Source of the DNA: a virus
Length of the DNA: 23,884 bases
Direction: 5' to 3' (one strand)
IMG/VR virus record: IMGVR_UViG_3300028400_000030
Span: 1-23,884 of that record
Shown here piece after piece: positions 8,443 to 23,884 of the stretch. The translations under genes and the position numbers were made by a program. Positions within the stretch are counted from its first letter, which is position 1; each line of letters begins with the position of its first letter. The notes under the pieces are model-generated. The model was not told where the DNA came from. It was given only the letters and a program-made list of their open reading frames with translations, and ran no database searches.

Positions 8443-8808
8443 TTACCAATTTATTTTCCACTCAAAAGTGAGTGTGTGCTCTGATTGAAACCGTGATGAT
8501 CCTGGGATATACCCCACCCTAAAATTCTTATAATCTATATATGGTCTTAAATATGGAATCGGATTTTCGGCATAACCACTGACAAGTCCAATATTAGTAC
8601 CAATATTAATAGTCGGAGTTAATTTCTTCTCAAAAATCACTCCACCATGAATCGACAGTTCGCCATAAGAATTTTTATAAAATCCAAAATCTAATTTATT
8701 ACATTGAATAGTAATACCTGGATTGAATTGATTATAATCTGATCCATAATCATTACTTAAATGAAGTGAACCAATAGCAATTACTAACAGACATGTTTCG
8801 AGCATCAT
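8443..8808 (-). CDS. Exported, outer-membrane beta-barrel-like protein, first gene of late operon
   Basis: A 121-aa protein starting at a double ATG behind a strong AGAGGAG site. It begins with a short hydrophobic stretch (CLLVIAIGSLHLS) that can act as a signal peptide. The rest is alternating beta sequence with the pattern N-Q-F-NPGI, GFYKNSYGELS, GYAENP and a final FEWKIN ending in an aromatic residue region, all typical of small outer-membrane barrels. Similar PagP-like or superinfection-exclusion-type proteins occur in phages, but this assignment is by pattern only. As first gene after the late promoter it should be highly expressed. Possible role: change of the host outer surface, or lysis. 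Confidence 0.6.
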   Translation of the reverse strand: MMLETCLLVIAIGSLHLSNDYGSDYNQFNPGITIQCNKLDFGFYKNSYGELSIHGGVIFEKKLTPTINIGTNIGLVSGYAENPIPYLRPYIDYKNFRVGYIPGSSRFQSEHTLTFEWKINW

Positions 8809-8831
8809 ATATTCTCCTCTATATGTTTTTA

Positions 8832-8947: not shown

Positions 8948-9180
8948 CTATATAGTGTAACTAAAATTAAAAACCTCAGTGTTTATGCGGGTTACAGCGT
9001 GGTCTATGCATAGTGTAACTAAAATTAAATTATAACTAAAGTTATATAAAAAATTATAACTAAAGTTATATTCAAAACCTATGCATAGTGTAACTAAAAC
9101 TATTACTTTAGTTATATTCAAAACCTATGCATAGTGTAACTAAAATATCTTAGAATTTATGCGTAGTGTAACTAAAATTT
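8948..9180. repeat. Five iteron-like direct repeats (core TAGTGTAACTAAAA)
   Basis: The core begins at 8953, 9011, 9086, 9132 and 9164. Copies 2 to 5 are preceded by TATGCA or TATGCG. Copies 3 and 4 lie in a 36-bp exact direct repeat (9064-9099 and 9110-9145). Between them are two perfect ATAACTAAAGTTAT palindromes (9032-9045, 9056-9069) and an inverted TTTAGTTA (9107-9114). Spacing is irregular (58, 75, 46, 32 bp). Likely binding sites for a replication initiator or regulator. Confidence 0.88.
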
Positions 9181-9303
9181 AAGTGTATCGAAATTAAAAT
9201 TTAATTTGTCAAAATAATTGATCTTAACTAAATAAACTATGTAATCAAATATGTGAGCATTTAGTAGTTGGGTTGAGAAAGGTTTACCTCTAATTGATTT
9301 CAT
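9172..9303 (-). CDS. Possible 43-aa protein antisense to polymerase leader
   Basis: ATG 9303-9301 follows TAGGAGAATAT. The 14 bases AGGAGAATATATGA are identical to the initiation site of the first late gene (8818-8805). The product begins MKSIRGKPF; the divergent polymerase begins MKSIQRF and shares its first 12 bases, ATGAAATCAATT. The rest is hydrophobic and aromatic (AHIFDYIVYLVKINYF), and the stop lies in iteron copy 5. It may be a real small gene, or an inverted duplicate of the polymerase start. A transcript through it would be antisense to the polymerase mRNA leader. Confidence 0.45.
   Translation of the reverse strand: MKSIRGKPFSTQLLNAHIFDYIVYLVKINYFDKLNFNFDTLKF
9218..9245 (+). promoter_or_regulatory. 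Weak candidate promoter for polymerase gene
   Basis: TTGATC (9218-9223) and TGTAAT (9240-9245), with a 16-bp spacer, are partial matches to sigma-70 boxes. A start near 9252 would place the hairpin arm at the very 5' end of the transcript. Other AT-rich boxes nearby are possible. Confidence 0.35.
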
Positions 9304-9339
9304 ATATTCTCCTACTCGGCCCAACTACTAAATGTTTAC
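9253..9339 (+). promoter_or_regulatory. Long leader hairpin before polymerase gene
   Basis: CATTTAGTAGTTGGG (9258-9272) is a perfect 15-bp inverted repeat of CCCAACTACTAAATG (9320-9334). With G-U pairs in RNA the stem extends to about 25 bp (9253-9277 with 9315-9339), around a 37-nt loop. The loop holds AATTGATTTCAT (9292-9303), exactly complementary to the polymerase start region 9358-9369. The ribosome site AGAGG (9345-9349) lies just outside the stem. Confidence 0.85.
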
Positions 9340-9361
9340 TAAAAGAGGTAGTAAAAAATGA
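9332..9361 (+). CDS. Possible 9-codon leader ORF coupled to polymerase
   Basis: The ORF MFTKRGSKK starts in the right arm of the leader hairpin. Its TGA overlaps the polymerase ATG as ATGA. Ribosomes translating it would disturb the stem and finish on the polymerase start. No clear ribosome site of its own is seen. Comparable coupled leader ORFs control plasmid rep genes (established), but function here is inference. Confidence 0.35.
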   Translation: MFTKRGSKK

Positions 9362-10941
9362 AATCAATTCAAAGATTTTGTGAACTTGCTCACGCCAAAT
9401 TATCCACAGATTTCCCTTCATTGTCAGAGAAAGATCGAACTAAAATTATCAATAGATATATTACTACAGTAACTAACGAAATCAATGATAAACTTAGATC
9501 TTTCAACCAACCAGGTTCAAATTGTTTTTTCGTTAGTCTTCGAAACATTCAGATAAAAAGTAAAAGTACAATAAACGGCAAACAACAATATATGAATAAG
9601 TGGTTTGAGCAGAATTGTCCACTCTATCTAATTTTAAACAAAGGAAACAATTTAATCAAACAATATACGGTGGTTAAAATGAATTATAATCTAAAAATTG
9701 ATATCGACATGGCTTACGCACAAGCTATTAGTGAAAACGGTATTCCAGAATCTGAAATGCTCGAAATCCTTCAGAAGATGTATTCACCGGAATTGTTTGT
9801 AATTATTGAACAAGCCAATGATGATTTAGTTGATTTTGTACCGATTGCAATGAATAATCTAAAAGCATATATTAGTAAAACCGAACATATTATCAAACAA
9901 TCCCCAAATAACAAACTAGAATTAAATCTTCGTGAAGCAAAGAGAATATATGTAATTGCTCATTGCTGTAATGGCGAACTAATTCAAATTAAAAATGAAA
10001 GTGATTTTGGAAGATTATATTATAAAGGTCCAAACTTACAAAGTTGCAGTAAAGAAGTAAGACATGCAGCACTTGGTCCATGCTATGAATATGATATTGA
10101 AAATAGTGTTTATGCCTGGCGATATAACGAAGTAACGAGAATTCTAAATGAATTTAATATGGATATTAAATTTACTTATACGCTTGATTATATCGATCGA
10201 AAAGAATATTGGCGGAAAGAATTAGCTAGATATGTTTTTAAGAATACAAAACTATCAGAAGATTATAAAATTAAATTAATTAAGCAAGTATTTACTGCAA
10301 TTGGGTTTGGTGCTAAAGGTAGTAAAGCCGCTATATTTTGGGGTCAAGGCAATAATAAACAAACACTTGCAATTAATAGTATTATAAAAAATAAAGAAGA
10401 TAGAGAACGACTACTATCTCATGAATTTATTATTGGATTTATAAATGAACAAAATGACATAACCAATATTATTTTTGAGTACTATAAATCAAAAATTAAT
10501 ATTGATTGTATAAAACAAGGTGGTAGAATTGCGAAAAGTAAATTAATTTCGTATCTATACCAGAAACAAGAGCGTGTATTACTTGAAGTAGCAAGTGAGT
10601 GTTTTGATAATGTACTACTTAAGGTGCATGATGCATTTTATACTAAAACAAAAAATATTGATGCATTAGCAAATGCAATTTATAAATTAAAACAATATAA
10701 TTCAGAATTAACACTCAATAGAACAGACATTAAACCCTGGACTACATTCGATAAGGCTGTAGAATATCATAAACAGTTTATTATAAACGAAGAAATAAAA
10801 GTAAAACATTATAATAATCAATATGTTATTGATGTAAGTAGAAATCCAAATTATATTGATATTATAATTCAAGACAGTATGCCATATATAGAAAATCATC
10901 ATGTAGGATATAATAGAGATGAAGACCCATTTTATAACTGA
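9358..10941 (+). CDS. Divergent superfamily-A-like nucleic acid polymerase (TV-Pol / prim-pol type candidate)
   Basis: A 527-aa protein and the only recognisable replication protein. Three separated blocks match, in order, the palm motifs of family A DNA polymerases and T7-like RNA polymerases. The motif A-like block is CYEYDIENSVYAW (Asp246), preceded by GRLYYKGPNLQSCSKEVR. The motif B-like block is IKQVFTAIGFGAK, with Lys and Gly at 309-320. The motif C-like block is LLKVHDAFY (His424, Asp425). No 3'-5' exonuclease, helicase or Toprim domain is seen. The first 200 residues are unassigned and could carry priming or DNA binding. A family of compact family-A relatives in mobile elements and viruses (TV-Pol) was proposed to combine primase and polymerase; this fits that pattern by motif recall only. 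Start ATG 9358 has AGAGG 8-12 nt upstream and a structured leader. Confidence 0.62.
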   Translation: MKSIQRFCELAHAKLSTDFPSLSEKDRTKIINRYITTVTNEINDKLRSFNQPGSNCFFVSLRNIQIKSKSTINGKQQYMNKWFEQNCPLYLILNKGNNLIKQYTVVKMNYNLKIDIDMAYAQAISENGIPESEMLEILQKMYSPELFVIIEQANDDLVDFVPIAMNNLKAYISKTEHIIKQSPNNKLELNLREAKRIYVIAHCCNGELIQIKNESDFGRLYYKGPNLQSCSKEVRHAALGPCYEYDIENSVYAWRYNEVTRILNEFNMDIKFTYTLDYIDRKEYWRKELARYVFKNTKLSEDYKIKLIKQVFTAIGFGAKGSKAAIFWGQGNNKQTLAINSIIKNKEDRERLLSHEFIIGFINEQNDITNIIFEYYKSKINIDCIKQGGRIAKSKLISYLYQKQERVLLEVASECFDNVLLKVHDAFYTKTKNIDALANAIYKLKQYNSELTLNRTDIKPWTTFDKAVEYHKQFIINEEIKVKHYNNQYVIDVSRNPNYIDIIIQDSMPYIENHHVGYNRDEDPFYN

Positions 10942-23348: not shown

Positions 23349-23884
23349 TTAAATTTGATATGTTACCACAAAAGTGAATAAAAAACCAGCTGTTAATTCA
23401 GATACTAACAAACCAGATGTACCTGTAGTACTATCCCATTTATATAAATCAATATAATTATTATTTGCGGCTACTTTTCCGGTAATATATTCGCCGGCGG
23501 CAATTGATAAATTCTGTGCATCACTAAACACAGCTATACCCGAAGCCGATACACCTGCTTTTGCATTAAAAGGTAATCCGGTAATTCTAACAGTATTTGT
23601 TGAAACCATTGATCCTAAATTGTCATTAGCTAGATAACCATAACATACTACATTATTTCCGATACGAACATAAGTGCCTTCGGTTGCAGATGTTTTATTT
23701 GAACTATTTCCAGCTGAATCAACTACTTCTATTGTCCAAGAACCAGTTTCGTACGGAAGTCGAGACTCGACATAAGCCTTGGTAGCTACATCTTGTGCTG
23801 CTGTTGGATCTGCAACATTAGTAATCTTATTTGATCCTAAATCGAGGTCAGATGTAATTTGCCCACCAACTTCTAAATCAGCAG
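23349..23884 (-). CDS. Tail fibre protein, 3' (C-terminal) part, continuation of 1-444
   Basis: The frame is open from the right edge to the stop at 23349-23351 and joins the left-edge fragment exactly in frame. The first residues past the joint, LGSNKITNVADPTAAQDVAT followed by KAYVESRLP, are a hallmark of phage tail fibres. The C-terminal 90 residues form a beta domain (RITGLPFNAKAGVSASGIAV, later TAGFLFTFVVTYQI) likely to bind receptor or cap the trimer. A shorter call from ATG 23609 would lose half of it. Confidence 0.82.
   Translation of the reverse strand, partial: ADLEVGGQITSDLDLGSNKITNVADPTAAQDVATKAYVESRLPYETGSWTIEVVDSAGNSSNKTSATEGTYVRIGNNVVCYGYLANDNLGSMVSTNTVRITGLPFNAKAGVSASGIAVFSDAQNLSIAAGEYITGKVAANNNYIDLYKWDSTTGTSGLLVSELTAGFLFTFVVTYQI
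23856..23884. repeat. Terminal redundancy, right copy
   Basis: Identical to 1-29; see that entry. Confidence 0.93.

Follow-up and report, generated by a model that had tools for sequence, protein, structure and literature searches.

A predicted leader pseudoknot that would cover the start codon of a family A DNA polymerase gene in two phage types

The window analyzed in this study is the whole of the virus record IMGVR_UViG_3300028400_000030, a stretch of 23,884 nt. A direct repeat of 29 nt is present at its ends (1-29 and 23856-23884) and one tail-type frame seems to continue through their junction, which makes a complete, circular genome of about 23.86 kb probable. This size is small for a P22-like phage. 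P22-like structural genes for terminase, portal and DNA ejection were found. The minus strand carries nearly all genes of the window, and the plus strand carries the polymerase gene (9358-10941), which is followed by a small gene. That this is the only polymerase of the phage, as proposed in the first-pass annotation, fits the genes scanned, but several small genes are without assignment. Two other phage records possess a TerL 73% identical to that of the window. On this flank of their terminase genes lies a different gene of 277 aa (L003:1010-1843 and L005:838-1671), and no polymerase match was found in these two records, so that an exchange of the replication module seems to have taken place. 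The features of the polymerase region are given below.

8952-9182, no strand assigned: five iteron-like repeats ATAGTGTAACTAAAATTAAA, between 8808 and 9358 and upstream of the leader
9218-9245, plus strand: weak promoter candidate TTGATC-16-TGTAAT, with 9/12 consensus matches only; predicted start near 9253
9253-9277, plus strand: 5' arm of the long stem S1, pairing 25/25 with 9315-9339
9278-9314, plus strand: hairpin loop of 37 nt
9292-9303, plus strand: anti-start AATTGATTTCAT, 5' strand of the proposed second helix S2; same plan at L075:2445-2456
9300-9313, plus strand: TCATATATTCTCCT, a 14-nt exact complement to the start and ribosome site of gene 8443-8808 (copy at 8805-8818)
9315-9339, plus strand: 3' arm of S1, pairing with 9253-9277
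9344-9349, plus strand: Shine-Dalgarno-like AGAGGT of the polymerase gene, from sequence
9358-9369, plus strand: start codon and codons 2-4 of the polymerase gene, 3' strand of S2
9358-10941, plus strand: family A DNA polymerase, 527 aa, from fold comparison and conserved residues

The ATAGTGTAACTAAAATTAAA repeats are probably iterons of a putative origin. The earlier assignment of gene 9358-10941 as a polymerase is confirmed by its family A fold. No Pfam, NCBIfam or useful PHROG match was obtained for the window protein, and none of the 15 family members scanned gave a convincing Pfam match. A structure model from the single sequence was useless, and the AlphaFold model built from 15 sequences has a mean pLDDT of 77.6. 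This model matches Klenow with a Foldseek E value of 1.5e-5, Pol theta with Z 16.0 and rmsd 3.8 over 275 residues, and T7 DNA polymerase with Z 14.9, the matches to Pol theta and T7 lying over residues about 155-460; its best matches among solved structures are family A DNA polymerases. Residues D246, K309, G318, H424 and D425 are conserved in the 15 relatives, and a Pol I-type palm and fingers fold with motifs A, B and C is present.

Single-sequence searches revealed no close relatives of the polymerase in phages, plasmids (one distant Polaromonas match) or viral contigs. The relatives were recovered by protein and profile searches, of which the profile searches were needed, and they come from viral contigs and two Polaromonas plasmids. 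No closer family member was found in about 1,170 prokaryote genome searches. The members on the small Polaromonas plasmids pH8NP1 and pW9NP1 (L006:4368-5873 and L008:37-1653) are distant and annotated as hypothetical or Clp N-terminal domain proteins. The polymerase frame at L066:2980-3123 looks broken by an early stop, and the gene in a Thiomonas assembly (L054:4950-5792) seems cut short, with the C-terminal part only.

A long inverted repeat, with 15 bp perfect and about 25 bp when G-U pairs are counted, had been noted upstream of the polymerase start. Read as RNA of the plus strand, its arms indeed form 25 of 25 pairs (S1), namely 21 Watson-Crick pairs and four others (9255/9337, 9257/9335, 9273/9319 and 9274/9318), all of which read G-U on the plus strand. 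The perfect 15-bp core is CATTTAGTAGTTGGG. Folding of 9240-9400 gives -50.1 kcal/mol (z = -6.7), a value that none of 200 shuffles reached. The loop 12-mer AATTGATTTCAT (9292-9303) is, as claimed before, the exact reverse complement of ATGAAATCAATT (9358-9369); among 20,000 dinucleotide-shuffled window loops, three had a complement of at least 12 nt to the positions -20..+15. The start at 9358 is backed by the alignment with the polymerase of the nearest relative, L075, from residue 1. As a background, all ATG ORFs of 100 aa or longer in the fetched loci were screened, 514 in number. An upstream complement of at least 11 nt to the positions -8..+12 was present in the window and L075 only, and a stem of at least 15 pairs in the 150-nt leader was present for three of the 514.

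The exact S1 core has 34 matches among viral contigs, about the chance level for a 15-mer by our own estimate, and no match was found there to the exact loop 22-mer. At the gathering score, Rfam gave no match in the window or in 13 relatives, with sub-threshold matches only. Rfam microRNA matches on L075 were discarded, as they only reflect the long perfect hairpin. An intrinsic terminator was ruled out, as no T run follows the stem. Inversion of the loop as DNA was also rejected: a stop ends the inverted frame ahead of the polymerase (MKSIRGKPFSAQLLNVY followed by a stop, read by eye), and no recombinase was identified among the genes scanned.

L075 (IMG/VR 3300033049_000058; 36,331 nt with a 239-nt end repeat) is a siphovirus-like phage with an integrase and differs in phage type from the window, whose terminase has no match in it. 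A near-twin, L076, has the same leader. The polymerases of the window and L075 are sisters with support 99/99 and show 44% identity, in an alignment that begins at residue 1. Just upstream of its polymerase leader, L075 has a likely origin in the form of a tandem duplication of about 120 nt (2119-2360).

The hypothesis of two helices was fixed before L075 was examined. The leader stem of L075 has 25 pairs and is perfect (2408-2432/2461-2485), with a loop of 28 nt. In this loop GTTCATAATATA (2445-2456) exactly complements TATATTATGAAC (2521-2532), the positions -6..+6 of its start, and five of 20,000 shuffled L075 loops matched as well. When S1 is compared from base to tip between the two phages, 13 of the 25 pairs are changed on both sides, two on one side, ten are the same and none is broken. 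In S2 both phages share an ATGAA/TTCAT core and differ at position +6 on both sides; the other six pairs are found on the 3' side of this core in the window and on its 5' side in L075. The leader sequences are thus largely different and the two-helix plan is the same. Covariation, proposed as a check in the first-pass annotation, is found in L075 with both helices kept, in one independent relative only; covariation depth is absent, since there are only two distinct leaders. The comparison with L075 is the decisive evidence for the predicted two-helix leader, and the part of S2 identical in both phages counts against it.

We consider it probable from these comparisons that the leader is a cis-acting H-type pseudoknot which would hide the start codon and lower translation of the polymerase. 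Such a pseudoknot had already been suggested, and it is the best reading because the hairpin and the anti-start loop are real and the covariation test was passed by L075: both helices are above chance, and both are kept there by compensating change. The loop lengths of the window and L075 sterically permit the fold. In the nascent mRNA, 9253-9339 would fold first into the hairpin of 25 pairs, holding a single-stranded antisense of its own start in the loop. As the start region emerges, 9292-9303 would pair with 9358-9369 and close the pseudoknot, which would bury the start codon and keep polymerase output low. S2 is short and rich in A-U pairs, so that it should act as a competitor of ribosomes and not as a full block on the gene. 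Rough energies of S2 are modest, with -4.6 kcal/mol in the window and -3.0 kcal/mol in L075, and a local hairpin downstream of the stem in the window (-10.2 kcal/mol) competes for the start. The modest stability and the competing hairpin fit a rheostat better than a lock, and they are also the chief weakness of the pseudoknot reading. The level would most likely be set by ribosome competition, and RNase III cleavage of the stem or a bound protein may add further control. Helix formation in the cell, repression and relief are what we infer. A phage that has only one small polymerase needs to adjust the amount of it with few regulators, and a leader carrying the antisense of its own start would do so by RNA alone.

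In phage T4, gp43 and gp32 govern their own translation via a leader hairpin and a leader pseudoknot, respectively (PMC3014915). The window resembles T4 gene 43 in the position of a leader hairpin upstream of the start of a phage DNA polymerase, where it controls initiation in T4 (PMC3014915). However, gp43 belongs to family B, its hairpin is short and lacks evidence of a pseudoknot, and the protein is needed for repression, whereas the window encodes a family A polymerase and has an antisense of the start codon in the loop itself. Sequence conservation of hairpin and loop among related phages, as for the gene 43 type, was not found: the stems of the window and L075 share 10 of 25 pairs by position, and the loops differ. 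The likeness to T4 gene 32 is a leader pseudoknot on the mRNA of a phage replication gene, which in T4 serves translational control (PMC3014915). The gene 32 pseudoknot differs in being compact, lying 67 nt upstream of the start and nucleating the binding of gp32, and it forms no pairs with the start codon. According to a review on T4 it may be the sole viral example of a pseudoknot in translational autoregulation (PMC3014915). The window leader would act on the same step as gp43 and gp32 through a different construction, with a loop antisense to the start codon. A differently built pseudoknot on a DNA polymerase gene in two phage types would suggest a recurring solution.

Several other explanations were weighed against the start-codon pseudoknot. 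The leader may be an autogenous operator: binding of the hairpin or pseudoknot by the polymerase, or by some other phage protein, would stabilise the closed state in the manner of T4 gp43, with the anti-start helix as a lever worked by the protein. Between phage types the leader plan moves together with the polymerase gene, and T4 gp43 and gp32 govern their own translation in this way (PMC3014915). Stems and loops are nevertheless largely different at 44% polymerase identity, a difference that one would not expect of a sequence-specific protein site, and we regard this explanation as unlikely. Much the same standing, on the improbable side, is given to an RNase III switch, in which a cut in the stem would detach the antisense loop and turn translation on. 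The 25 continuous pairs in both phages are long enough for RNase III, and such a switch is compatible with the start-codon pseudoknot as its relief step; cutting within the leader might, however, also destabilise the mRNA, and the stem is a candidate substrate. The leader of lambda N provides a parallel, as a long RNase III-sensitive hairpin before this early phage gene affects translation in dependence on N and NUT. The lambda hairpin, unlike that of the window, is not known to have a loop antisense to the start codon. It is highly improbable that the repeat works at the DNA level, as a protein operator, a cruciform or part of an origin, with the loop match being secondary. Iteron-like repeats do lie just upstream in both phages, but pairing is kept where arm sequence is not, the four stem mismatches are all G-U on the plus strand, and the loop match to the start codon in both phages would be left unexplained. 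We give hardly any credence to a minus-strand gene start in the loop (AGGAGAATATATGAAATCAATT, a 43-aa ORF from 9303 down to 9172) that would make the match to the polymerase start a by-product. This ORF has a good Shine-Dalgarno with good spacing, and 14 nt are identical to the start of gene 8808. Its counterpart in L075 reads ATG AAC ACA TTG TGA, a dead end of four codons, yet L075 keeps the complementarity to the polymerase start although the ORF is lost.

Copy control of the plasmid type, in which a minus-strand antisense RNA, a translated leader peptide and the pseudoknot together set polymerase synthesis, is very unlikely. Control similar to that of the IncI/IncB/R1 type had been the initial proposal; membership in this type is not supported, as the pairing partner is the start codon, the leader ORF is unsupported and the controlled gene is a family A polymerase. 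The nine-codon ORF 9332-9361 (MFTKRGSKK, with its stop in an ATGA overlap) does exist, and its end on the start codon speaks for this model. Its role as a leader ORF is not supported, because it lacks a Shine-Dalgarno, such an ORF is expected in about 12% of random leaders of the same base composition, and an ATG counterpart is absent from L075, whose one comparable ORF has a GTG start (2482-2511), lacks a Shine-Dalgarno and ends 15 nt before the start. A promoter-like site on the minus strand (CTGACA-17-GATAAT, 9427-9399, 10/12; best in L075, 9/12) would suit an antisense RNA, but the 27 promoter-like sites of the region are near the shuffled expectation of 21.4 (sd 4.4). The leader does resemble those of repZ and repA in IncI-alpha, IncB and IncL-M plasmids in having a stem-loop of which the loop has a distant pairing partner close to the start; Asano and Mizobuchi in 1998 and Athanasopoulos in 1999 (both listed in PMC10724649) are said to have described pairing of the rep leader loop near the rep start into a pseudoknot. 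In IncI-type leaders the pseudoknot switches translation on, and antisense RNA and a translated leader ORF are needed. The loop partner of those leaders lies upstream of the rep Shine-Dalgarno, whereas it lies at 9358-9369 in the window and at -6..+6 in L075, and neither a coupled translated leader ORF nor a RepA/RepZ initiator as the controlled gene was found. With the start codon as the partner, closure of the pseudoknot should repress, a sign opposite to IncI, which argues against copy control of this type. The CopA/CopT-tap region of R1 (IncFII) likewise has a leader stem-loop upstream of a replication gene. Its control reportedly depends on the CopA antisense RNA and the tap leader peptide (ascribed to Blomberg, 1992, as listed in PMC10724649), and CopA-like antisense RNA and a tap-like leader peptide are unsupported in the window.

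The loop of the window hairpin has a second putative target, which was missed in the first-pass annotation. The 14 nt at 9300-9313 overlap the anti-start by TCAT and match the start of gene 8443-8808, a PagP-like gene divergent from the polymerase gene. A match of at least 14 nt to any of 31 other starts was present in four of 4000 shuffled loops, and the duplex of the loop segment with the start of gene 8808 has an energy of -21.8 kcal/mol. No second target was found in L075, where the best other start matches over 9 nt. A trans effect of the released loop on gene 8443-8808 is possible, and we take it only as a lead.

A different leader was found in nine distinct relatives of the sister clade, at the loci below. 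It has two neighbouring hairpins, and their loops, with an exact complementarity of 6-8 nt, may kiss.

L055:3315-3365, kissing-hairpin leader
L056:3355-3405, kissing-hairpin leader
L057:3752-3800, kissing-hairpin leader
L061:2153-2200, kissing-hairpin leader
L062:615-660, kissing-hairpin leader
L063:236-280, kissing-hairpin leader
L066:2872-2920, kissing-hairpin leader
L071:2452-2500, kissing-hairpin leader
L072:2452-2500, kissing-hairpin leader

The letters of the two loops change together (CTGATAG/CTATCAG, TTAGACC/GGTCTAA, TTGACG/CGTCAA and TTGGCG/CGCCAA), and own pairs average 6.6 nt compared with 3.2 nt for mismatched partners, in segments chosen by eye. Strong promoters lie just upstream of the leader in L056 (12/12) and L072 (11/12), and Rfam gave no match to the kissing-hairpin leader. 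RNA structure in the leader is common in the polymerase family, which raises the prior for the window case. Leader RNA may tentatively be viewed as a general control point of this family, although we hold this broader view with less than even confidence. It would comprise the anti-start pseudoknot of the window and L075, the separate, undescribed kissing hairpins of the sister clade, and possibly silencing in trans by the excised window loop; the anti-start loop would change its letters and keep its plan across phage types. A general anti-Shine-Dalgarno switch in the sister clade is not claimed, as only L056 (10 nt) and L072 (9 nt) are above background. The leader at L069:2820-2925 has two GC-rich hairpins, and GGGCTCGC upstream is complementary to GCGAGCCC in the downstream loop.
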